From positions 1 to 35,666 of the IMG/VR virus record IMGVR_UViG_3300030090_003671: a DNA stretch of 35,666 nucleotides. The stretch is one strand, 5' to 3'. Positions 13,817 through 35,666 of the stretch are shown here, in pieces. Position numbers and translations under genes: made by a program. A model generated the notes under the pieces. The model ran no database searches and was not told the origin of the DNA. It worked only from the letters and a program-made list of their open reading frames with translations. Numbering within the stretch: the stretch's first letter is position 1; each line of letters begins with the position of its first letter. Origin of the DNA: a virus.

Positions 13817-14152
13817 TCACAGTCCATCCATTAAAATAATGTCACCGTCTTTATGTGTTTTTATATTTTTCATTGAATCAAGCACTGCTTTACATTCTTT
13901 TTTAGATAAACCAGTTTCTTTGCATAAAACATCTAAACCAGCGGCCCCACCTTCTTTCTTTAGAGTTCTAATGATAATTGGTTTTGGGTCAGCCTTTTTT
14001 TCTCTTAGTTGTCTAAAGTCTTCTCCAGTTATTTTACCATCACCATCAGCATCTATTCTTTTTTGGTTTCCAGTTAGTGCTTTTTCTTCTTCATCTTCAT
14101 TATCTACTTTATGTGTTCCACAGTGTATCTTCAATATATCTTCCCATGTCAT
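13817..14152 (-). CDS. Tagged EF-hand-like calcium-binding protein (MTWEDILK)
   Basis: A 111-residue protein with canonical tag MTWEDILK. Residues 34-45 (DADGDGKITGED) form a textbook 12-residue EF-hand loop, with D34, D36, D38, K40 backbone and E44/D45 at the end. A flanking helix follows (FRQLREKK). The C-terminal 55 residues (IIIRTLKKEGGAAGLDVLCKETGLSKKECKAVLDSM) look like a winged helix. It overlaps the upstream gene by one base. Calcium binding might sense the move from seawater to cytoplasm or stabilise the head. This is inference. Confidence 0.7.
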   Translation of the reverse strand: MTWEDILKIHCGTHKVDNEDEEEKALTGNQKRIDADGDGKITGEDFRQLREKKADPKPIIIRTLKKEGGAAGLDVLCKETGLSKKECKAVLDSMKNIKTHKDGDIILMDGL

Positions 14153-14553
14153 TATTGTTCACCTCTTTCTTGATTTTCTTTTGAGCGCTTATCGTCTGTA
14201 ATTGGCCCACCCTTAGCCCATGTATAACATGTTCTAGCGGAATGGCATTTGAAATGGTGCATCCAGCAATAACCTAAACGACCATCATCATCTAGTTCTA
14301 ACGGCATACATTCTTCCATTCTAGGAGAAATATCAAATGCAACACAATTACTACAGTTAGACTTTTTAGCCACATCAGCAGTAGTATTCCACCTTGCCGC
14401 ATACCTTTCCCAGTATTCCTCATCATCTAAGTTTAAAGGGCCATATTGAATATGTTCGGCTTTAACAGCACTATCTCTATTTTTAGTGTTTAACTCTAAA
14501 TCTTGAGTCGCTCTAGGACAGGCCATTTCTTTTAATATTATTTCCCAACTCAT
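14152..14553 (-). CDS. Tagged cysteine-rich protein, possible metal or Fe-S binding (MSWEIILK)
   Basis: A 133-residue protein starting MSWEIILKEMACPR. The conserved-looking cysteine region runs from NCSNCVAFDISPRMEEC to GYCWMHHFKCHSARTCYTWAKGGPI. It has seven cysteines with an HH pair and a GGPI ending, a layout I associate with small phage proteins that resemble high-potential iron-sulfur proteins. Cluster or zinc binding cannot be told apart from sequence. It overlaps neighbours by one and four bases. The tag suggests it is packaged. Confidence 0.68.
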   Translation of the reverse strand: MSWEIILKEMACPRATQDLELNTKNRDSAVKAEHIQYGPLNLDDEEYWERYAARWNTTADVAKKSNCSNCVAFDISPRMEECMPLELDDDGRLGYCWMHHFKCHSARTCYTWAKGGPITDDKRSKENQERGEQ

Positions 14554-15309: not shown

Positions 15310-18018
15310 TCACCTAAACATTGCTTTAACTGTATAAACTACTTCTTCATTTATTCCATAATTTCTTGAAATAGATTCGTAAGAGGAAACCGCCTTAACT
15401 ATTCTATCAATTTCAGTAGCAGTTAAATCCATTCTATGTTCTTTATGTATTTTATTAATAACTAAACCCATGTGGTCTACATCAGTTAATGATAAACTAG
15501 ATTTAACAATAGGTTTATTTTCCATTTTTCTAATAGTATCATGAGCGTATAATAAAGACTCATTTATTTCATCCATTTTATGGAACTCATCAAATAATCT
15601 ATCTAACCGCAGTAAAGATGCGTATAAATCTTTATCCATTCCAATCGCTAATTTTTTCTCTGCTCTAGGGTCTGAACCACCTTCACCGAATACATCTGGT
15701 TCTCGTTTAGGCGCACCTGCTCTATAACTACTAACACCAAAAAACGCCGTAAACTCTGGAAGATTAATAGCATGTCTTAACATGTCTATTGGGTAATTTT
15801 TTCTCCTTCTATCTTTATCAGGTTTTAAATCACCAAAAAATCTTTGCAATGCTTTAGTTTGGTTTTTTATATCGGCAGTGGGCATAGCACCTTTAATTAC
15901 ATTTAAAACGGAAATTTTATTCTTCTTATCAAATTGTTGACCGAATATTTCATTTAATGCTTTTGAAGCCCTTCTAGCGGTTTGCCATAATCTCTTTTCA
16001 TCATCCACTAAAGTTCCTTGTGTCGCTAAACTCATGAAAGTAATTAACGCATCAATATCTTTCTTTCTTATATCATCCATTCCTTTCTCTAATAAAGAAC
16101 CAATAGGGCTTACTAATTGTCCTTGTTTATCTCTAACCATTTTAGATAAATTTAACCAAGCACTTCCTGTTGACCATCTTGGCCTCTCCTTCGCTTGAAC
16201 ATAAAATTTTCCAGATAAAGGTTCAATATAATACTCATACATAGCATTCATTAAATCATTCCATTGTTCAGTTAATTCTGTTGGTAATTTTCTATTAATA
16301 CCTTGAGAGGCTATTTGTTTTATAGCACCAAAACTACCACCTAAAGAACCACCGTCTTTATGGTCTTCTTCTGATATTCTTTCATTATAAACATCAAATG
16401 CATCTCTAACTTCCTTCCCAAAAGTAGTAAGAACTTCTAAGAAATCCTCAGTCATTTCATTAACTTCATCAAGATATTGTTCATTAATTACCTTTTTTTG
16501 CTTTTTACCCTTTTTACCTCTAGCGAAGTCTTGGAAGAAAAGTCCAGTATCTTTTGGTAATTTAGTAGAAGTTTCTCTTACTTCTAATACATTTTTTAAT
16601 TTGGATTTTTCAGGAGTTTGAACTCCAGTAGTGAATTCTAAAAGTTCTTTAGGTTGTTGCCTTGCGTAATATTCATCTTCTATAAATGGAGATATAGGTA
16701 AATGATAAGGGGCCTTTTTCCTAGTCATAGATATGTTATTTGCCCACTCATCAAATTTAGAAATAAACTCGTCAGTTAATTGTTGGTTTTCTTTAAATAC
16801 AGGCATCATTGATAATAAAGACCTGTATTCTCCACCACCAATAAGTAAATTTCTAAGTTTTCTTAAATCTCCTATAGGTATAGGCATGTCTTCATACTCA
16901 TCACTGTATTTATACCAAAAGATAGGGTCAACTGGTATCGCCTTAGTTTTAGTAGTTAATTTTATTTTTTCCGTTTCATCAACTACTTCTTGAACTGCTG
17001 GACTCATAGAAGCAGTTTCAACAAACTTGGGGCGGTCTTCTTCATGCAGAGTATCAAAGACACCTTCATGCTCTACGTTTTCTCCCACTCTTTCATCTTC
17101 TTTACCAGCAACTTCTACTTGTGCTTTTGGCGCTTCACTTATATCTTCATCTTCTGATATACCTTTTAATTCTAAAAACTTACCAATTAACCTTATAGCA
17201 AAAGGAAGTCCTTCTTCTACCTCCATAGAAAAACTATTTAATTTTAAAACATAATTAGGTATAATTATATTTCCTTGTAAATATTTTTTCTGATATAAGT
17301 CTTGAACTTCACTTAACGCTTCCTTTAAAGTTTCATCTTTATTTTTTTCAAACAACTCATTCGCCGCTTTATTAAAATCCTCAAAAGCATCTACAACTAT
17401 AGTGTGTTTTTTATGTATTCCTTCCCAGTAATCATATATCCTTTCTCTAGTTTCCCATCTACCATAGGGCAAATTACCTATTTCTTCTATCCAACCTAAA
17501 TTTATTTTTTTCTTTGAACCACTAACTCTAGCCTGTTCTAACTTTGACTTTCTTTTATCTAATAATTTTTTTAGGAAATCAATATTCTTATTTATCTCTC
17601 CTTTTTGAGTATCATCTGTAACTGCTGGATGACCAGATTGTGATAAACTCTCTAAATCATTTTTAGCCTTATCAATTTTATCTTCATCATCTATTTGTCT
17701 TTTAACTTTAACATTATCTAAATCAAAACCTGAAACAAATAAATCTTCATAATTAACATTTCTTTTTTTATTACGCCAATCAAATATTTTACTTACTAAT
17801 TTATTAAATTCTTCAAAAGGGTTTACATCTTTTTGTTTTCCCTCTGGAAGTTGAGTAGCCAATTCATCTCTCAATTCATTAATCTCTTTATCTAGTGCTT
17901 CCTCAGACGCATCAGGATTAGTTGTTTCTAAATGGTCATATAAGTCCTCTGAAAACTCATCCCATTTTTGGTTTTCCCACGCTTCTTTTGCTTTTTCTTT
18001 CCAATCTTCAGTTATCAT
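15310..18018 (-). CDS. Very large unknown protein (902 residues), untagged
   Basis: A 902-residue, charged, mainly helical protein starting MITEDWKEKAKEAWENQKWD, with a GGAGGA ribosome site. It has no N-terminal tag and no recognised motif. Coiled-coil-like segments lie in the first 250 residues, an acidic low-complexity stretch lies near 300-340 (EDEDISEAPKAQVEVAGKED), and the C-terminal part has regular helices. It overlaps the following tagged gene's stop by one base. The size and position among putative cargo suggest an internal virion protein, but this is not shown by sequence. Confidence 0.72.
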   Translation of the reverse strand: MITEDWKEKAKEAWENQKWDEFSEDLYDHLETTNPDASEEALDKEINELRDELATQLPEGKQKDVNPFEEFNKLVSKIFDWRNKKRNVNYEDLFVSGFDLDNVKVKRQIDDEDKIDKAKNDLESLSQSGHPAVTDDTQKGEINKNIDFLKKLLDKRKSKLEQARVSGSKKKINLGWIEEIGNLPYGRWETRERIYDYWEGIHKKHTIVVDAFEDFNKAANELFEKNKDETLKEALSEVQDLYQKKYLQGNIIIPNYVLKLNSFSMEVEEGLPFAIRLIGKFLELKGISEDEDISEAPKAQVEVAGKEDERVGENVEHEGVFDTLHEEDRPKFVETASMSPAVQEVVDETEKIKLTTKTKAIPVDPIFWYKYSDEYEDMPIPIGDLRKLRNLLIGGGEYRSLLSMMPVFKENQQLTDEFISKFDEWANNISMTRKKAPYHLPISPFIEDEYYARQQPKELLEFTTGVQTPEKSKLKNVLEVRETSTKLPKDTGLFFQDFARGKKGKKQKKVINEQYLDEVNEMTEDFLEVLTTFGKEVRDAFDVYNERISEEDHKDGGSLGGSFGAIKQIASQGINRKLPTELTEQWNDLMNAMYEYYIEPLSGKFYVQAKERPRWSTGSAWLNLSKMVRDKQGQLVSPIGSLLEKGMDDIRKKDIDALITFMSLATQGTLVDDEKRLWQTARRASKALNEIFGQQFDKKNKISVLNVIKGAMPTADIKNQTKALQRFFGDLKPDKDRRRKNYPIDMLRHAINLPEFTAFFGVSSYRAGAPKREPDVFGEGGSDPRAEKKLAIGMDKDLYASLLRLDRLFDEFHKMDEINESLLYAHDTIRKMENKPIVKSSLSLTDVDHMGLVINKIHKEHRMDLTATEIDRIVKAVSSYESISRNYGINEEVVYTVKAMFR

Positions 18019-21386: not shown

Positions 21387-22688
21387 TCATCTCCATAAAC
21401 TAGCGACCCAACTTTTCTTAACTGGTTTAGGTTTTAGTTCCTCTGGGATGTCATCTCCCCAATTTCTCAATACTCCTTTTACACCACCGTCATCGGGAGT
21501 ATAAAATAATCTACCATCGGGCGCTTCGAAATCACCTTTTTCTCTCATAACTTTATTGATAACTCTAAATAATAAAGGACGTGTAATTTTAATTTTAAAC
21601 TGTTTAATGTTTTCATGACCTACTATATCTTGAAAACCACCAATAGCAGTTATAAATTTAGAAGTTAATCTAGTAACGTTAAAAGGTTTAGCATTTATAT
21701 TATCTAATATCCTACTTGGGCCTCCACTGTAAATAACTTTATTGGAAGCATTACCAGTTCCATAAGTTCCAGCAGATTTCATTATTTTTCTCACATAATT
21801 AGCGAACAATTTCCAGTCTGCTAATTGTTGCGCCTTTTTATCCATATTGATTCCACCACCACTTGTAGCAAAATCAACAATTACTTCATCTATTTCAGCA
21901 CCTTTTATTTGTTTATCAAATCTTTCTAATAAACCCAATAAACCAATAGAAACTAATTTTCCTTTACCTTCAGATACACTTGAATTAGCAAACATGGCTT
22001 GATGCATCGGTGGAGTTTGAGGGCCATTCATAGGACCATACCAAGATTCAGGAACAGGACCCATTTCATTTTCTTCTCCTTTAACTTTAGTTCTCATCTC
22101 TACATATTTAGGAGTTCTATAATGGCCGTGGACCACTTCTTTATCATCCACTTCAAATCCATCACCGCCCGCTTTAGCAGATATAGATACAGGAACAGTG
22201 AAAGGAATATTTTTTGGGTCAGCATCTTCATCTCCAGAAAATGATTTTATTGTTTTTGTAAATTCTTCCATATCTTCTGCATCTTCTTCTGTAATTAACT
22301 CATCACCTGAAGTTAATATTCTTTTAAAATCTTCTAATTTATTTTTAAAGAATGGCTGTTCTACCCCTTTACGGGATGCGGCGGTAGTTACATGATTTTC
22401 TAAATGTTCATATAAAGTATCAAAATATTTTTTTCTCTTTGGGGTTCCTCTACTTGTATTAGCCGCAGAACCAACAACTCCAATATCTTCATTACTCAAT
22501 TCTTTACATCTATTAGTCCATGTTTCAAAATCTTCTTTTAACTTAGAATGTATTTCTCCTACATCTTGGTCTATAAAAGAAATCACCCCATCTGGTCCTT
22601 TAAACCTAACTAACTGTTTTTTCTTTACTGGTTTCTTTTTAGCCTTTAAAATTGGTTCTCTTTTCCATAGTTGACTTGTCCAACTCAT
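21387..22688 (-). CDS. Unknown protein tagged at both ends (MSWTSQLWK ... KSWVASLWR)
   Basis: A 433-residue protein starting MSWTSQLWKREPILKAKKK and ending KPVKKSWVASLWR, so the same tag variant (SWxxxLWK/R) is at both termini. The interior has a glycine-rich region (VSISAKAGGDGFEVDDKEVVHGHY near 170) and a region GLLGLLERFDKQIKGAEIDEVIVDFATSGGG, with no assignment. The start overlaps the upstream stop by four bases. The double tag is the most informative feature and suggests cargo loading or double processing. Confidence 0.7.
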   Translation of the reverse strand: MSWTSQLWKREPILKAKKKPVKKKQLVRFKGPDGVISFIDQDVGEIHSKLKEDFETWTNRCKELSNEDIGVVGSAANTSRGTPKRKKYFDTLYEHLENHVTTAASRKGVEQPFFKNKLEDFKRILTSGDELITEEDAEDMEEFTKTIKSFSGDEDADPKNIPFTVPVSISAKAGGDGFEVDDKEVVHGHYRTPKYVEMRTKVKGEENEMGPVPESWYGPMNGPQTPPMHQAMFANSSVSEGKGKLVSIGLLGLLERFDKQIKGAEIDEVIVDFATSGGGINMDKKAQQLADWKLFANYVRKIMKSAGTYGTGNASNKVIYSGGPSRILDNINAKPFNVTRLTSKFITAIGGFQDIVGHENIKQFKIKITRPLLFRVINKVMREKGDFEAPDGRLFYTPDDGGVKGVLRNWGDDIPEELKPKPVKKSWVASLWR

Positions 22689-25575: not shown

Positions 25576-25953
25576 TCACCTATTAGGAATTTCTTCTACA
25601 ACTCCACTTAACTTACCACTGTATTTTTCAAAATCCTTAATCTGATTCGAATGAAATGGTTTACCACCATCAGGACTAACTGCAATAGTAACATGAGCAA
25701 ACTTATCATCATCTCTCTCAGCATCTACTTTAACAGCCATTGCCCTATCATCAATACCAATAGCAGTAATATTCATTGAAACCTTATCTCCCACCTTATA
25801 TTTTGAATCTCGCAACGGTCCAAGTTTAATTGTCATATGATGAGCAATAGGTTTCCATCCTTCGGGAACTAACTCTAACAATTTATTTCTGGATTCATCA
25901 TCAAGAACAACAGCGGAATAACTGATACTTTTCAAGATGGTTTTCCAACTCAT
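25576..25953 (-). CDS. Tagged 2H phosphoesterase-like protein (MSWKTILK)
   Basis: A 125-residue protein starting MSWKTILKSISYSAVVLDDE. Two H-x-T motifs, HMTIKLG (39-45) and HVTIAVS (87-93), are about 48 residues apart and sit on beta strands. This is the signature of the 2H superfamily (LigT, cyclic phosphodiesterases, RNA end healing). The HHMTIKLGPL and GGKPFHSN contexts are those I recall from viral 2H proteins. It would open or cleave 2',3'-cyclic phosphates or related bonds in RNA. It lies five bases upstream of the CCA enzyme and in the same operon. The substrate is unknown. Confidence 0.72.
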   Translation of the reverse strand: MSWKTILKSISYSAVVLDDESRNKLLELVPEGWKPIAHHMTIKLGPLRDSKYKVGDKVSMNITAIGIDDRAMAVKVDAERDDDKFAHVTIAVSPDGGKPFHSNQIKDFEKYSGKLSGVVEEIPNR

Positions 25954-27329
25954 CTCCTATACCTCTTATTTCTCTGTCTTCTTTGATAATCCCTTTTTCT
26001 CTTTTCTTTATCTTTTTGCTTTCGTTCCCTTTCAGCAATATCTCTTGCATATTGAGCCTGTTCTTGTTGTTCTTTCAAAGGAGTAGTCAAATCTTTATCT
26101 TCTCTTGCTTTATTTTGTCCTCTGTCTTCAAACCCTTCCCCAGCATTCCATATATCTTTAGGTATAACATTATCCTTTGGAGGTTGTCTACCATCTTTAG
26201 GATAAATGGTATTAAAAATTAGAGTCTTTCTGTCAACTTTATGATTATACTCTGAAGAAGGCAACCTATCTCCTATATTTAGAGAATCAACTAAAACTAT
26301 CTGTAAGTTACTTGTGTCTGGAAATCTCCAAAACCAATAACTACCCTTTGATAAACTACCTAACTTTTCTATCCATTGGGGCATTTCAGTTTCATTTGGA
26401 GGGCCGCCTCTTTTATCTCCCCGATACATATAATGAGGTCTAACAATAACAGAGGGAGATTCTCCTGACCCTGCCTCTATATTACCATAACCTAAATCAT
26501 CTTCTCTTTTTTCTTTAGCGGTATCTTTATATTTAAAAGTTGACCACGAACTAGGAGGAGCCCATTTTAGAACCTCTTTCCATTTATCTACAGATTTAAA
26601 CGTTAATCGTTGTCCACTTGGAAAATCAGTCGAATATTCTGCATCAGGGTCAAATTCCATATCTTCAAATTTATCTGTAACCTTACCTTTAGGAGTTATA
26701 AATTTAGCACCTTTTTCTCCTTTCGCTGAAACAGCAATAGCATCTTGATTATACTTATCCGCCATCTCATAAATCTTACTTTCTAAACTAGTAGGAACTC
26801 CAGTTAGCATAAACGAAGGTTCAGTTCCCCATTGTCCACTTCTACCAGTAGCAGAAGTAATAGTGAATTTATTCCCTACATTTAATCTTGCTAATTCATC
26901 TAACATCTTATCAGACAATCTACTCTTTTCCTCATTGGGAATATCAGGGTCCTCTATAGGAGCAATCCAAATATTACTTTTATCGGGTTCAACTAACCTT
27001 TCAACATTTTTAGGGTCAAACCCTTGTAAAGTAGTTTGTCTTTTCTTAAGACTTCTTATTATATCTTCGCCGCCTTTATCTTCAATATCGTATCTAGCAT
27101 TACTACTCCTTAGCATTTCTTCAAGAATACCATTAATAGCAGATTGTCGCTTCTTTTTATTTTTACCAATCCGAAAATAATAATTAACCATATTACGATT
27201 AATCTTATCTAAATTACTATACCTAACATATTTATTTCTGTCTTTAGGCATAGCGTCATTCTTAATACCATTAATTAACTCAAGCCATTTTAAATCAATT
27301 GGCGCTTTAAGAACATCTTCCCAACTCAT
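25950..27329 (-). CDS. Tagged two-module protein with basic tail (MSWEDVLK ... KWKEVLK)
   Basis: A 459-residue protein. ATG 27329 is chosen because it overlaps the upstream stop (ATGA) and gives MSWEDVLK. Module 1 contains FTITSATGRSGQW, EPSFMLTGV (170-178) and QDAIAVS (195-201), weakly like the DUF3293 pattern. At 248-255 DKWKEVLK repeats the tag and opens a second module of unknown fold, with VIVRPHYMYRGDKRGG and SYWFWRFPDTSNLQIVLVD. The last 40 residues are almost all Arg/Lys/Glu/Gln (a basic helix). No activity assigned. Confidence 0.7.
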   Translation of the reverse strand: MSWEDVLKAPIDLKWLELINGIKNDAMPKDRNKYVRYSNLDKINRNMVNYYFRIGKNKKKRQSAINGILEEMLRSSNARYDIEDKGGEDIIRSLKKRQTTLQGFDPKNVERLVEPDKSNIWIAPIEDPDIPNEEKSRLSDKMLDELARLNVGNKFTITSATGRSGQWGTEPSFMLTGVPTSLESKIYEMADKYNQDAIAVSAKGEKGAKFITPKGKVTDKFEDMEFDPDAEYSTDFPSGQRLTFKSVDKWKEVLKWAPPSSWSTFKYKDTAKEKREDDLGYGNIEAGSGESPSVIVRPHYMYRGDKRGGPPNETEMPQWIEKLGSLSKGSYWFWRFPDTSNLQIVLVDSLNIGDRLPSSEYNHKVDRKTLIFNTIYPKDGRQPPKDNVIPKDIWNAGEGFEDRGQNKAREDKDLTTPLKEQQEQAQYARDIAERERKQKDKEKRKRDYQRRQRNKRYRR

Positions 27330-28150
27330 GCTACCACCTTGTTCTCCAGCCAATTCGCCAACCGAGTTAATTCCGCCAAATCAACTCCTGTCTTATAACC
27401 CCGACTATGCGCCCAACTAATCAACTTATTCGTAGAAAGATTATTTCCACTATTCGGCATAAAGGGACATCCGCCCAACCCACCAACACTCGCATCAAAA
27501 GTAGTTACACCCCATTCGATTGCCGCCTCTACATTCCGAAACATATCATTAGCACCCTCATGTAAATGTAATGCAATCTCAACAGGTAAACCTCTAGTCA
27601 ACTCCAACGTCTGTAACAACTTACTTGGATAACATGCTCCAACCGTATCACACAAAACAACCGTATTACCTAATTCAGAAGCCATCTTTAGAACCTCTAA
27701 CATTTTATATTCATTCGGAAGTCCTTCATATGGACAACCAAACGCACAAGAAACATAAACCCTAACATTCTCTTTATCGACCCCATTCAACATCTCAGCA
27801 TACTCGGCATAAAGCAAATCTAAACGCTTCCCCCAATTCCTAACATTAAATTCCTCAGAAGGAGAAAAACACACATTAAACCTAGTAGCACCAACTTCCT
27901 TTGCCCTCTCAAACCCTTTTAGATTCGGCACAAGAACTCCAAAATCCGCCAAACCCTTAGTTCTCTCAACAACATTTTCAGCATCCGCTAGATTAGGAAC
28001 TCTTTTTGGATGAACAAAAGACGTAACTTCAATATTCTTTAAACCAGCCCTATGTAAAGACTCTATCATATCCACCTTTTCATCAGTAGTTAAACTTCCT
28101 TCCCAATTTTGCAACCCATCTCTAGGCCCAACTTCATAAATACTTATCAC
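27326..28150 (-). CDS. HMG-CoA lyase-like enzyme (HMGL family)
   Basis: A 274-residue TIM-barrel enzyme of the HMG-CoA lyase branch of the DRE-TIM family, close to the usual ~300. Residues matching the lyase active site are YEVGPRDGLQN (R10, D11), EVTSF (E41), HLH (H195, H197, metal ligands), and GLGGCP (C228, the catalytic cysteine), plus VSCAFGCPYEG. The metal-binding loop reads HLHEGAND where lyases usually have HCHDTYG, so specificity may differ (for example a related aldolase-type reaction). It has no tag and overlaps both neighbours by four bases. The plus strand here is visibly richer in C than in the rest of the operon, suggesting recent acquisition. It is a candidate auxiliary metabolic gene. 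Confidence 0.85.
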   Translation of the reverse strand: MISIYEVGPRDGLQNWEGSLTTDEKVDMIESLHRAGLKNIEVTSFVHPKRVPNLADAENVVERTKGLADFGVLVPNLKGFERAKEVGATRFNVCFSPSEEFNVRNWGKRLDLLYAEYAEMLNGVDKENVRVYVSCAFGCPYEGLPNEYKMLEVLKMASELGNTVVLCDTVGACYPSKLLQTLELTRGLPVEIALHLHEGANDMFRNVEAAIEWGVTTFDASVGGLGGCPFMPNSGNNLSTNKLISWAHSRGYKTGVDLAELTRLANWLENKVVA

Positions 28151-34346: not shown

Positions 34347-34368
34347 ACCCTAATTAGAAAATATTAGA

Positions 34369-34413
34369 CATAAGGTGCATTTCATTATTCTTCAAAGTAT
34401 CACACCATATGGT
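34369..34413 (-). promoter_or_regulatory. Operator-promoter, leftward, for the 94/65-residue pair
   Basis: CAAAG (34393-34397) and ACCATATGGT (34404-34413) lie upstream of ACCTTATG (34376 to 34369, minus strand), which begins 30 bp before ATG 34346. The right arm is missing and the operator is 67 bp from the ATG, slightly further than usual. Confidence 0.6.
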
Positions 34414-34506
34414 TGTTACGCAGTTAAACTTAAATGGATTTTTAATTAAAGTTGTAAATTTCGCAAATTTCGCCATGCGCCACCTTTATAAGTAATTTAA
34501 CATCTC

Positions 34507-34632
34507 GTAGGTAGACAAAAGAAATGATTATCCATTACAGTATATCTCACATGGAGAGTGACCTCTTTTATCTAAGTAAAACCTAACACAGATATAATTA
34601 CTACCACTCAAAATGGTAATAGTTATACCTAC
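34507..34632. other. Nested inverted repeats, possible structured RNA
   Basis: GTAGGTA (34507-34513) pairs with TACCTAC (34626-34632), and TATATCT (34541-34547) with AGATATA (34590-34596), with ATTAC/GTAAT in between. No protein gene is present. The stems are short and AT-rich, so the structure is only suggestive. Confidence 0.3.
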
Positions 34633-34669
34633 CTAAATAGTTAGCCATTTTACTATATCAAATTCAATT

Positions 34670-35010
34670 GGTTATATATTATATAATATATTATATTAAT
34701 ATAGATATTAGTATCTAGTATAGAATATTCATAAGATTCGTATTATTATGATTATTATGATGTCATAATAATAATGAAATGTGTGAATAGAGAGAGTATT
34801 GATAGTTTTTTTATATTATTATTATTATTATTATATTTATTATATATATATAATATAATTAAAATACACTATAACACACTCTATATGTATATACTCTGTA
34901 TATATGAAATAATAATAATAATAATCATAATAATCAGAATTATGCGATTCCGTTTAAATTTGCGGGAAAATAGCATAATAATAATAAAATAATAATCATA
35001 ATAATAAGAT
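34670..35010. repeat. A/T-only low-complexity tract with AAT/ATT microsatellites
   Basis: About 340 bp made of TAT, ATT and AAT runs with few G or C. No gene. Such tracts often mark origins or boundaries where DNA opens easily, but no direct repeats of the iteron type are seen. Confidence 0.55.
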
Positions 35011-35032
35011 TTTTCAATAAGGTTTGCAAAGT

Positions 35033-35180
35033 AATAAAGGGAGAACATCCTGTCTCTTAGCAAAAGAACTAATCCGTAGAAATGTCGTAAAGGTGAGAGC
35101 CTTTATTGTAAATGCGGTATGATGAGTTGGCGACATTACAGAATTCATGTCGTTAGTTCTTTTCCTTCCTCAACTTTATT
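35033..35180 (+). ncRNA. Structured element 1 with alternative pairings
   Basis: AATAAAG (35033-35039) pairs with CTTTATT (35174-35180). AAAAGAACTAA (35062-35072) pairs perfectly with TTAGTTCTTTT (35153-35163). AATGTCG (35081-35087) pairs with CGACATT (35131-35137). TAAAGG (35088-35093) pairs with CCTTTA (35100-35105). The CGACAT segment can also pair with ATGTCG at 35147-35152, so two folds compete, as in switching RNAs. Confidence 0.5.
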
Positions 35181-35204
35181 AACTATCAATAATTAGTGAT
35201 TGTT

Positions 35205-35288
35205 GTCCACACTGGGTAACTCCAAAAAACGGAGCATAGAGATGGTGTGGATGGGTTCGTATTTACCCTTTTTCTTTCTCTATGCTCC
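35205..35288 (+). ncRNA. Pseudoknot element, copy A
   Basis: Stem a TCCACAC (35206-35212) pairs with GTGTGGA (35245-35251), extendable by G-T pairs. Stem b GGAGCATAGAGA (35231-35242) pairs perfectly with TCTCTATGCTCC (35277-35288). Hairpin c is GGGT/ACCC (35253-35256/35265-35268). The order a-b-a'-c-b' is a pseudoknot. G-T pairs favour plus-strand RNA. Confidence 0.6.
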
Positions 35289-35295
35289 ACTCACA

Positions 35296-35370
35296 GTCCA
35301 CACTGGATATCTCAAAGGGGTGTGGGGAGAGTGTGGATAGGCCCGTTTTAGCCTTTTATGACTCCCCACA
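35296..35370 (+). ncRNA. Pseudoknot element, copy B with compensatory stem
   Basis: TCCACAC (35297-35303) pairs with GTGTGGA (35331-35337), the same as copy A. Stem b is different, TGTGGGGAG (35321-35329) with CTCCCCACA (35362-35370), but still perfect and extendable by two G-T pairs. Hairpin c is AGGC/GCCT (35339-35342/35351-35354). Spacers match copy A within one base. Confidence 0.6.
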
Positions 35371-35384
35371 TTCCGCTTTACATT

Positions 35385-35478
35385 CCTTAATTTACAGGGG
35401 AGGTAGGGTAGTAAATTAAGGGGTTGTTACTTGGTTAACACCATGAGATGTTAATTAGGTCGTCATCCCTACCTTCCC
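35385..35478 (+). ncRNA. Third pseudoknot element
   Basis: CCTTAATTTAC (35385-35395) pairs with GTAAATTAAGG (35411-35421), 11 bp. GGGGAGGTAGGG (35397-35408) pairs with CCCTACCTTCCC (35467-35478), 12 pairs with one G-T. Hairpin TTAACA/TGTTAA (35435-35440/35449-35454) lies between. Same a-b-a'-c-b' order with a short first spacer. Confidence 0.55.
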
Positions 35479-35495
35479 ACTTAAACTATAATAAT

Positions 35496-35666
35496 TCTAT
35501 AGAAGATGATAAGTTATAACATTACATTTAGTTAGTTATTGGTTTTACTACTAATAACTATCCGAAATTGAGAGAAGTTAATGCCACCACTTATCTATAG
35601 AAGATGTAACTGATAGACTATGACTAAGTTTACTTACGAGTTAGTCGGTGAATTAGTTGATGTATT
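35496..35666 (+). ncRNA. Further structured sequence running off the right edge
   Basis: CTATAG and ATAAGT around 35497-35514 pair with ACTTAT and CTATAG at 35589-35600 with a six-base bulge. TAGTTATT (35533-35540) pairs with AATAACTA (35553-35560). GACTAA/TTAGTC (35622-35627/35641-35646) makes a last hairpin. TCTATAGAAGATG is repeated directly at 35496 and 35594. Confidence 0.4.

Follow-up and report, generated by a model that had tools for sequence, protein, structure and literature searches.

Predicted tandem pseudoknots with an embedded hairpin in a non-coding region of a marine, probably magrovirus-like virus

Introduction

In the mRNA leader of phage T4 gene 32, a pseudoknot mediates autoregulation by the phage single-strand-binding protein; single-strand-binding proteins often carry an acidic tail ending in DWF. 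Flavivirus 3' ends contain tandem exoribonuclease-resistant pseudoknots. Among three-stemmed H-type pseudoknots, examples are the preQ1-II riboswitch and the SARS-CoV-2 frameshift element, and tandem predicted three-stemmed pseudoknots near start codons have been reported as well (PMC11262651). ToxI RNAs, in turn, consist of 3 to 5.6 copies of a repeat with a core pseudoknot of ~25 nt (PMC8860590).

The locus analyzed here lies in IMGVR_UViG_3300030090_003671, a linear viral contig in IMG/VR of 35,666 bases, which was analyzed over its whole length and is termed the window. An earlier note on this DNA had described two tandem pseudoknots, here copies A and B. This observation was confirmed and turned out to be larger than first described: the plus-strand fold stood, but a third pseudoknot just downstream (PK4) and a nested pseudoknot RNA just upstream (PK1) had been missed. 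A, B, and PK4 share with the preQ1-II/SARS-CoV-2 type the topology of two crossing stems plus an embedded hairpin (PMC11262651), yet lack sequence or Rfam similarity to these elements. They are located outside coding sequence and hence are not a frameshift signal as in SARS-CoV-2; conserved loop nucleotides of the ligand-pocket type are not kept between A/B and their counterpart in a relative, and stem b of A/B, with 12–13 bp, is long. The likeness to T4 gene 32 is that of a viral pseudoknot in a (here predicted) replication-gene leader, extended by the finding that PK1 in relatives touches the gene for an acidic-tailed protein ending in DWF. However, PK1 follows this gene instead of preceding it, A and B in the window are not near a gene of the DWF type, and the DWF-tailed protein gave no Pfam or PDB match, such that its single-strand-binding identity is a guess. 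As at flavivirus 3' ends, duplicated and diverged pseudoknots have kept their fold in a viral non-coding region, but A/B differ in topology, come from a virus with a DNA genome, and apparently lie in a 5' leader, and their resistance to exonucleases is hypothetical. With ToxI RNAs (PMC8860590), A/B have in common that both are tandem pseudoknot repeats; they differ in unit length, copy number, and fold, and neither a toxin gene nor a terminator was found with A/B.

Rfam 15 returned no matches at gathering score for the window and 8 related loci, preQ1-II and other pseudoknotted riboswitches included, and relaxing the cutoff to E<=10 for 34900-35666 added only weak, scattered matches without a common fold. 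The statement that no described family has this repeat thus held, as nothing credible was seen even at E<=10. Three such folds in series behind a conserved nested-pseudoknot RNA, in a virus that is apparently archaeal, are undescribed in the literature searched, which covers few subscription papers. As far as could be searched, the three-stemmed topology is known, while the sequence family and the arrangement are without a described match. An HDV-like ribozyme, whose nested pseudoknot the helix order of A and B resembles, was considered and rejected: the order misfits, P3 is missing, and Rfam gave nothing.

Results

Predicted fold of copies A and B

The two copies comprise the following features.

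35205-35288, plus strand: copy A, three-stemmed H-type pseudoknot of the order a-b-a'-c-b' (from sequence and shuffle score)
35205-35212 / 35245-35252, plus strand: copy A stem a, GTCCACAC / GTGTGGAT
35231-35242 / 35277-35288, plus strand: copy A stem b, 12 bp, GGAGCATAGAGA / TCTCTATGCTCC
35253-35268, plus strand: copy A hairpin c, GGGT..ACCC
35296-35374, plus strand: copy B, fold as copy A (from shuffle score, register with A, and the homologue in IMGVR_UViG_3300030108_002666)
35296-35303 / 35331-35338, plus strand: copy B stem a
35317-35329 / 35362-35374, plus strand: copy B stem b, 13 bp including two G-U pairs, GGGGTGTGGGGAG / CTCCCCACATTCC
35339-35354, plus strand: copy B hairpin c, AGGC..GCCT

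The repeat unit of 91 nt is present in two copies. Every stem that had been named in the order a-b-a'-c-b' was found in both copies with zero mismatches (A, 23 Watson–Crick pairs and one G-U; B, 22 and three). Stem b of copy B is 13 bp long with two G-U pairs, not 9 bp as first read, and this 13-bp reading places B in exact register with A. Loop lengths in A and B (L1 12–18, L2 0–2, L3 22–24) are compatible with a three-stemmed H-type pseudoknot, a class to which A, B, the copy in the relative, and PK4 can be assigned with all stems unbroken. Using the best two-stem score from stacking energies and 200 dinucleotide shuffles as the null, copy A scored -41.5 (shuffle mean -17.8, sd 4.4) and copy B -44.1 (mean -19.3, sd 5.1), with 0/200 shuffles as good in either case. 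When 4.8 Mb of fetched loci were scanned on both strands, the highest-scoring pseudoknots were B, A, the relative's copy, and PK4, which ranks the A/B/PK4 array with the strongest pseudoknot formers across several megabases of related DNA. Pseudoknot-free folding recovered b and c and left a unpaired. G-U pairs occur in A, B, the relative's copy, PK4, and PK1 in the plus-strand sense only and thus favor a plus-strand RNA, as had been deduced before from the G-T pairs. Among the window's open reading frames, none of note covers the A/B element.

Covariation between the copies

Stem a is identical in the two copies, as the earlier note had it, and also in the relative; because its sequence is invariant, it is supported by pairing potential and retention rather than by covariation. 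Stem b and hairpin c did change, and compensatory changes have kept both paired. For the 16 pairs of b and c combined, 7 positions per strand differ between A and B, and 6 of them coincide (hypergeometric P = 0.0056); for stem b alone, where 4/5 changes fall on partner bases, the coincidence gives P = 0.045. We used this position-coincidence test in place of a null that all 12 b pairs stay standard. Given that G can pair with C as well as with U, 40% of placements pass such a null, which therefore carries no information. Inclusion of the relative's copy yielded 6 doubly changed pairs with 97% of cells paired, matched by 4/500 shuffles. Covariation had been rated as strong evidence for the fold; it stands at P ~0.006, but is thinner than this rating implies, with two states compared, essentially one comparison, and stem a invariant, so that we consider it moderate. 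Taken with the fold, a plus-strand RNA pseudoknot kept by selection in A and B is a well-supported prediction.

Matched changes in stem b might also arise from quasi-palindrome correction, i.e., template switching between the arms during replication, instead of selection on RNA. Template switching can place changes on partner bases just as seen for 4/5 stem b changes in the two copies. Such correction yields perfect palindromes, though, yet stem b carries two G-U pairs in B and one in the relative; hairpin c, nested in b, has changed in step, while the crossing stem a and the spacing were kept, and PK1 (see below) shows many independent changes across 30 sequences. We consider this explanation quite unlikely.

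PK4 and the arrangement in a relative

Directly downstream of copy B, a third fold of the same helix order was identified.

35385-35478, plus strand: PK4, order a-b-a'-c-b' (from shuffle score and identity with G003)
35385-35395 / 35411-35421, plus strand: PK4 stem a
35397-35408 / 35467-35478, plus strand: PK4 stem b
35433-35456, plus strand: PK4 hairpin c

PK4 scored -44.3 (shuffles -20.0, sd 4.2; 0/200 as good). A pattern search for PK4 hit no viral contig other than IMGVR_UViG_3300030108_002666 (G003; loci L083, L107, L143), which is also the sole other contig with the A/B element. Between the window and G003, structured parts exceed genes in conservation, with 100% identity for PK4 over 102 nt and 97% for PK1 versus 90–92% for genes.

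G003 carries a single B-like copy with its three stems intact. A relative in which stem b no longer pairs was sought and not found: in G003, the only relative, stem b pairs 13/13 and retains one G-U pair. Both A and B are predicted to fold in the window, but the tandem state does not extend to G003, and of the a-b loop motif TGGRTAWCTC, reported as kept, only TGG recurs there while RTAWCTC differs. With one copy and an altered loop in G003, the tandem state and the loop motif are lineage-specific; loss of the loop motif also makes it less likely that the a-b loop forms a ligand pocket. Further searches were in line with this narrow distribution. The A/B model R2 matched G003 only among 50 related virus records, an exact search with GTCCACACTGGRTAWCTC gave one unrelated match inside a gene (L002), and the pattern GTCCACACTGGN{15,45}GTGTGGAT gave G003 and three matches in unrelated sequence, two of which were inspected and lack the fold. 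In the contigs nearest by terminase (G008, G010, and G013), the whole pseudoknot cassette is absent from the homologous place, where the same divergent gap and AT-rich block are followed directly by genes. As it is missing in these closest relatives, the cassette is dispensable and accessory.

The order in G003 is PK1-PK1-B-PK4-ribosome-binding site-start codon, the array stopping ~20 nt before the start codon with PK4 and then AGGTGATTAATATG; the downstream operon encodes, among others, a pyrimidine-dimer glycosylase family protein. Tandem pseudoknot repeats preceding a gene are reminiscent of ToxIN (PMC8860590) and of an antitoxin RNA of a type III toxin-antitoxin system, encoded ahead of an endoribonuclease toxin gene. 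We regard this as highly improbable, since no toxin or defense family was detected among the downstream genes of G003 (seven analyzed by PADLOC, five by Pfam), two three-stemmed 91-nt repeats contrast with the ~25-nt core and 3–5.6 copies of ToxI (PMC8860590), and a terminator was not found. For ToxN/AbiQ-type toxins, this test rests on the G003 genes, as the gene downstream of the array is truncated in the window: a close start codon is absent after PK4, and the next candidate, near 35.6 kb, runs off the record.

The PK1 family

Upstream of copy A, we identified a nested pseudoknot RNA adjoined by a conserved block.

35009-35049, strand unassigned: conserved block immediately 5' of PK1, 97.6% identity to G003
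35064-35161, plus strand: PK1, nested pseudoknot RNA in which an outer stem encloses two crossing helices (from covariation, 34 copies)
within PK1, plus strand: outer stem AAGAACTAA / TTAGTTCTT, pseudoknot helix CCGTA/TGCGG, helix AATGTCG/CGACATT, and an optional hairpin
within PK1, plus strand: conserved unpaired stretches GTATGATGNGTTG and ACAGAWTTCATGT

PK1 is present in ~40 related viral contigs, as found by IMG/VR pattern scans and model R1; 35060-35170 of the window scores 103 bits with R1, but is among the sequences from which R1 was built. A, B, and PK4 are not members of this family. In an alignment of 34 copies (30 distinct), 12 pairs are doubly changed and 98.8% of cells are paired, matched by 0/500 shuffles. 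Covariation was found in both crossing helices, one pair of the pseudoknot helix being G-C in 18 and C-G in 12 sequences; since the crossing helix has no place in the alignment model and yet covaries, the pseudoknot receives independent support. The long unpaired stretches are nearly invariant. In G003, PK1 is duplicated (L083 7440-7553 and 7615-7725), and the outer stem is wholly swapped (AGAACTAA / TTGGTTCT versus GGTATCAC / GTGATACC) with the core kept. Weak R1 matches at two loci of G049 (L137, L138) look like chance, L137 lying within a coding frame, and matches of 18 bits in a bacterial genome (L153/L168) were likewise taken as chance.

Elsewhere, PK1 is located directly 3' of a gene ending in ..DFDWF and adjoins an RFC-like clamp-loader gene; on its 3' side are small genes, an ATPase-like gene, a clamp-like gene, and a PolB-like gene. 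Among these names, only RFC-like is backed by a Pfam match; ATPase-like, clamp-like, and PolB-like are guesses from gene order, and the 407-, 270-, and 254-aa proteins had no useful match. Between PK1 and the start codon of a small gene, these loci contain a second, smaller pseudoknot, a GGGTGCGAAGCCC hairpin, and a ribosome-binding site. The second pseudoknot, CAAGT-AGTGT-ACTTG-ACACT, shows compensatory variants (AGTGT/ACACT, AATGT/ACATT, AGTAT/ATACT). Judged from this order, A, B, and PK4 appear to take the slot of the second pseudoknot behind PK1. As both settings place pseudoknots between PK1 and a start codon, PK1 is predicted to head the leader; its orientation relative to the next gene is constant, also where it is far from the AT-rich region.

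In distant relatives (L180-L199), the gap after the gene for the DWF-tailed protein is hypervariable, containing nothing, a GGGTGCRANGCCC hairpin, or apparent pseudoknots, the latter at L193, L196, and L197 with AAGGGA/TCCCTT versus AAGAGA/TCTCTT. An A/B-like helix order in these leaders of G010, G009, and G008 was seen by eye only and is a candidate. An intergenic gap of G008 (L200 8792-8846) contains a possible small pseudoknot in which GCTCCCCCC / GGGGGGAGC crosses GAAGGT/ACCTTC.

Virus and genomic context

Among the genes pointing leftward in the window are those for the large terminase, the portal protein, and an S78 prohead protease, as well as for an ATP-dependent DNA ligase, an HMGL-like enzyme, and an enzyme of the CCA-adding type. 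In IMG/VR, at least 215 relatives of the terminase were found, many of them encoded on contigs of 85–96 kb. Two PK1-bearing records of 94–96 kb have a terminase that matches the window's at 69%, and in one of these two the RFC-like clamp loader adjoins PK1. We know of no cultured system for this virus group. The group is similar to magroviruses, viruses of the archaeal Poseidoniales (PMC10160649, PMC12999244). Of a criterion comprising head-tail genes, a replication module of PolB, clamp loader, and ligase, and a marine genome of around 95 kb, the window shows the terminase, portal, S78 protease, and DNA ligase genes; we regard this marine virus as probably archaeal and putatively magrovirus-like.

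The pseudoknot array lies in a non-coding gap of ~1.2 kb (34350-35600) without a credible gene. One further conserved element was detected in this gap.

34484-34640, plus strand: R0, TATA-like CTTTATAAG (34484-34492) followed by a conserved non-coding element with the core CTCACATGGAGAGTGAC

Counterparts of R0 exist at the homologous place in G003 (95.5% identity), G008, G010, and G013, while a pattern search matched G003 only. R0 is possibly a further non-coding RNA and a candidate plus-strand transcription start for the region. A plus-strand promoter just upstream of PK1 was not found, and the nearest motif points leftward: 35009-35049 reads CTTTGCAAACCTTATT on the minus strand and in this resembles the other promoter-like motifs of the virus. 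This block (97.6% identity to G003) contrasts with the neighboring AT-rich block, which is only 82% identical.

That AT-rich block (34640-35005), with TTA/TAT repeats, is a possible replication origin; its counterparts in relatives have other simple repeats (AGTAG, TTATCA).

Discussion

We favor, with a probability of about 0.6, the reading that PK1-A-B-PK4 represents plus-strand leader RNAs that act in cis on a rightward cluster of DNA-metabolism genes. A and B would then be two tandem versions, since diverged, of one plus-strand H-type pseudoknot that has a hairpin embedded in it, and the array would belong to the non-coding leader of viral genes that are clustered in rightward orientation and that in G003 are DNA-metabolism genes. 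Its position suggests transcription of the array and a cis effect on the genes downstream. Most likely, it would form a rigid structure, bound by protein or resistant to RNases, 5' of the ribosome-binding site, and thereby control translation or lifetime of the downstream mRNA, with the tandem copies adding redundancy. It could serve as a protein-bound translational switch, protect the mRNA against a 5' exonuclease, or have a sensing function.

Alternatively, PK1, A, B, and PK4 might be domains of a free-standing non-coding RNA with a trans-acting or structural role. A non-coding stretch of ~1.2 kb with several conserved folds would suit such an RNA, as would the lack of a close start codon after PK4 in the window and the long invariant unpaired stretches of PK1, which are typical of partner-binding RNAs. 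Yet, in G003 and at the ~40 PK1 loci the pseudoknots lead straight into a ribosome-binding site and start codon, and no terminator was identified after PK4, which makes this alternative rather doubtful.

The folds might also act at the DNA level, as inverted repeats that form cruciforms or hairpins of single-stranded DNA at an origin of replication; TCCACAC/GTGTGGA would then be bound by a protein. They indeed adjoin an AT-rich, repeat-rich block between divergent gene sets, and the invariance of stem a is what one would expect of a binding site. Such repeats are, however, absent from the counterpart AT-rich region in G008, G010, and G013; PK1 also occurs far from the AT-rich region, between replication genes and in constant orientation to the next gene, and G-U in the plus strand is used as a pair. 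A role as DNA thus appears unlikely.

Within the preferred reading of cis-acting leader RNAs, one may go a step further and assume a modular architecture, in which a transferable PK1 head is combined with swappable second pseudoknots that are duplicated and reshuffled between operons. The second pseudoknots would be of the A/B/PK4 type in the window and a small H-type knot elsewhere. This extension is tentative and, in our estimation, possible rather than probable. If true, DNA replication genes of marine archaeal viruses would be subject to a previously undescribed layer of regulation by RNA. Irrespective of this model, PK1 is a tractable RNA for structure/function work, as the family has dozens of members and its two crossing helices clearly covary; that it is repeatedly linked with replication genes points to a role that can be tested.

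Two other repeated motifs were noted in the window. Ten ACCATATGGT palindromes versus 0.03 expected are present between 30228 and 34413, mostly in intergenic gaps and with CAAAG/CTTTG arms; for several of them, ACCTTATRTA or ACCTTAATA comes next and leads to a start codon. These sites look like a repeated promoter or operator module of the virus group. Finally, an N-terminal M-(S/G/T)-W-x-x-(I/L)-L-K, which may be a tag for targeting or for the prohead, is common to many proteins of the structural region; it is seen in the window at 14152-14553, 15310-18018, 21387-22688, and 25950-27353, and also at L137.
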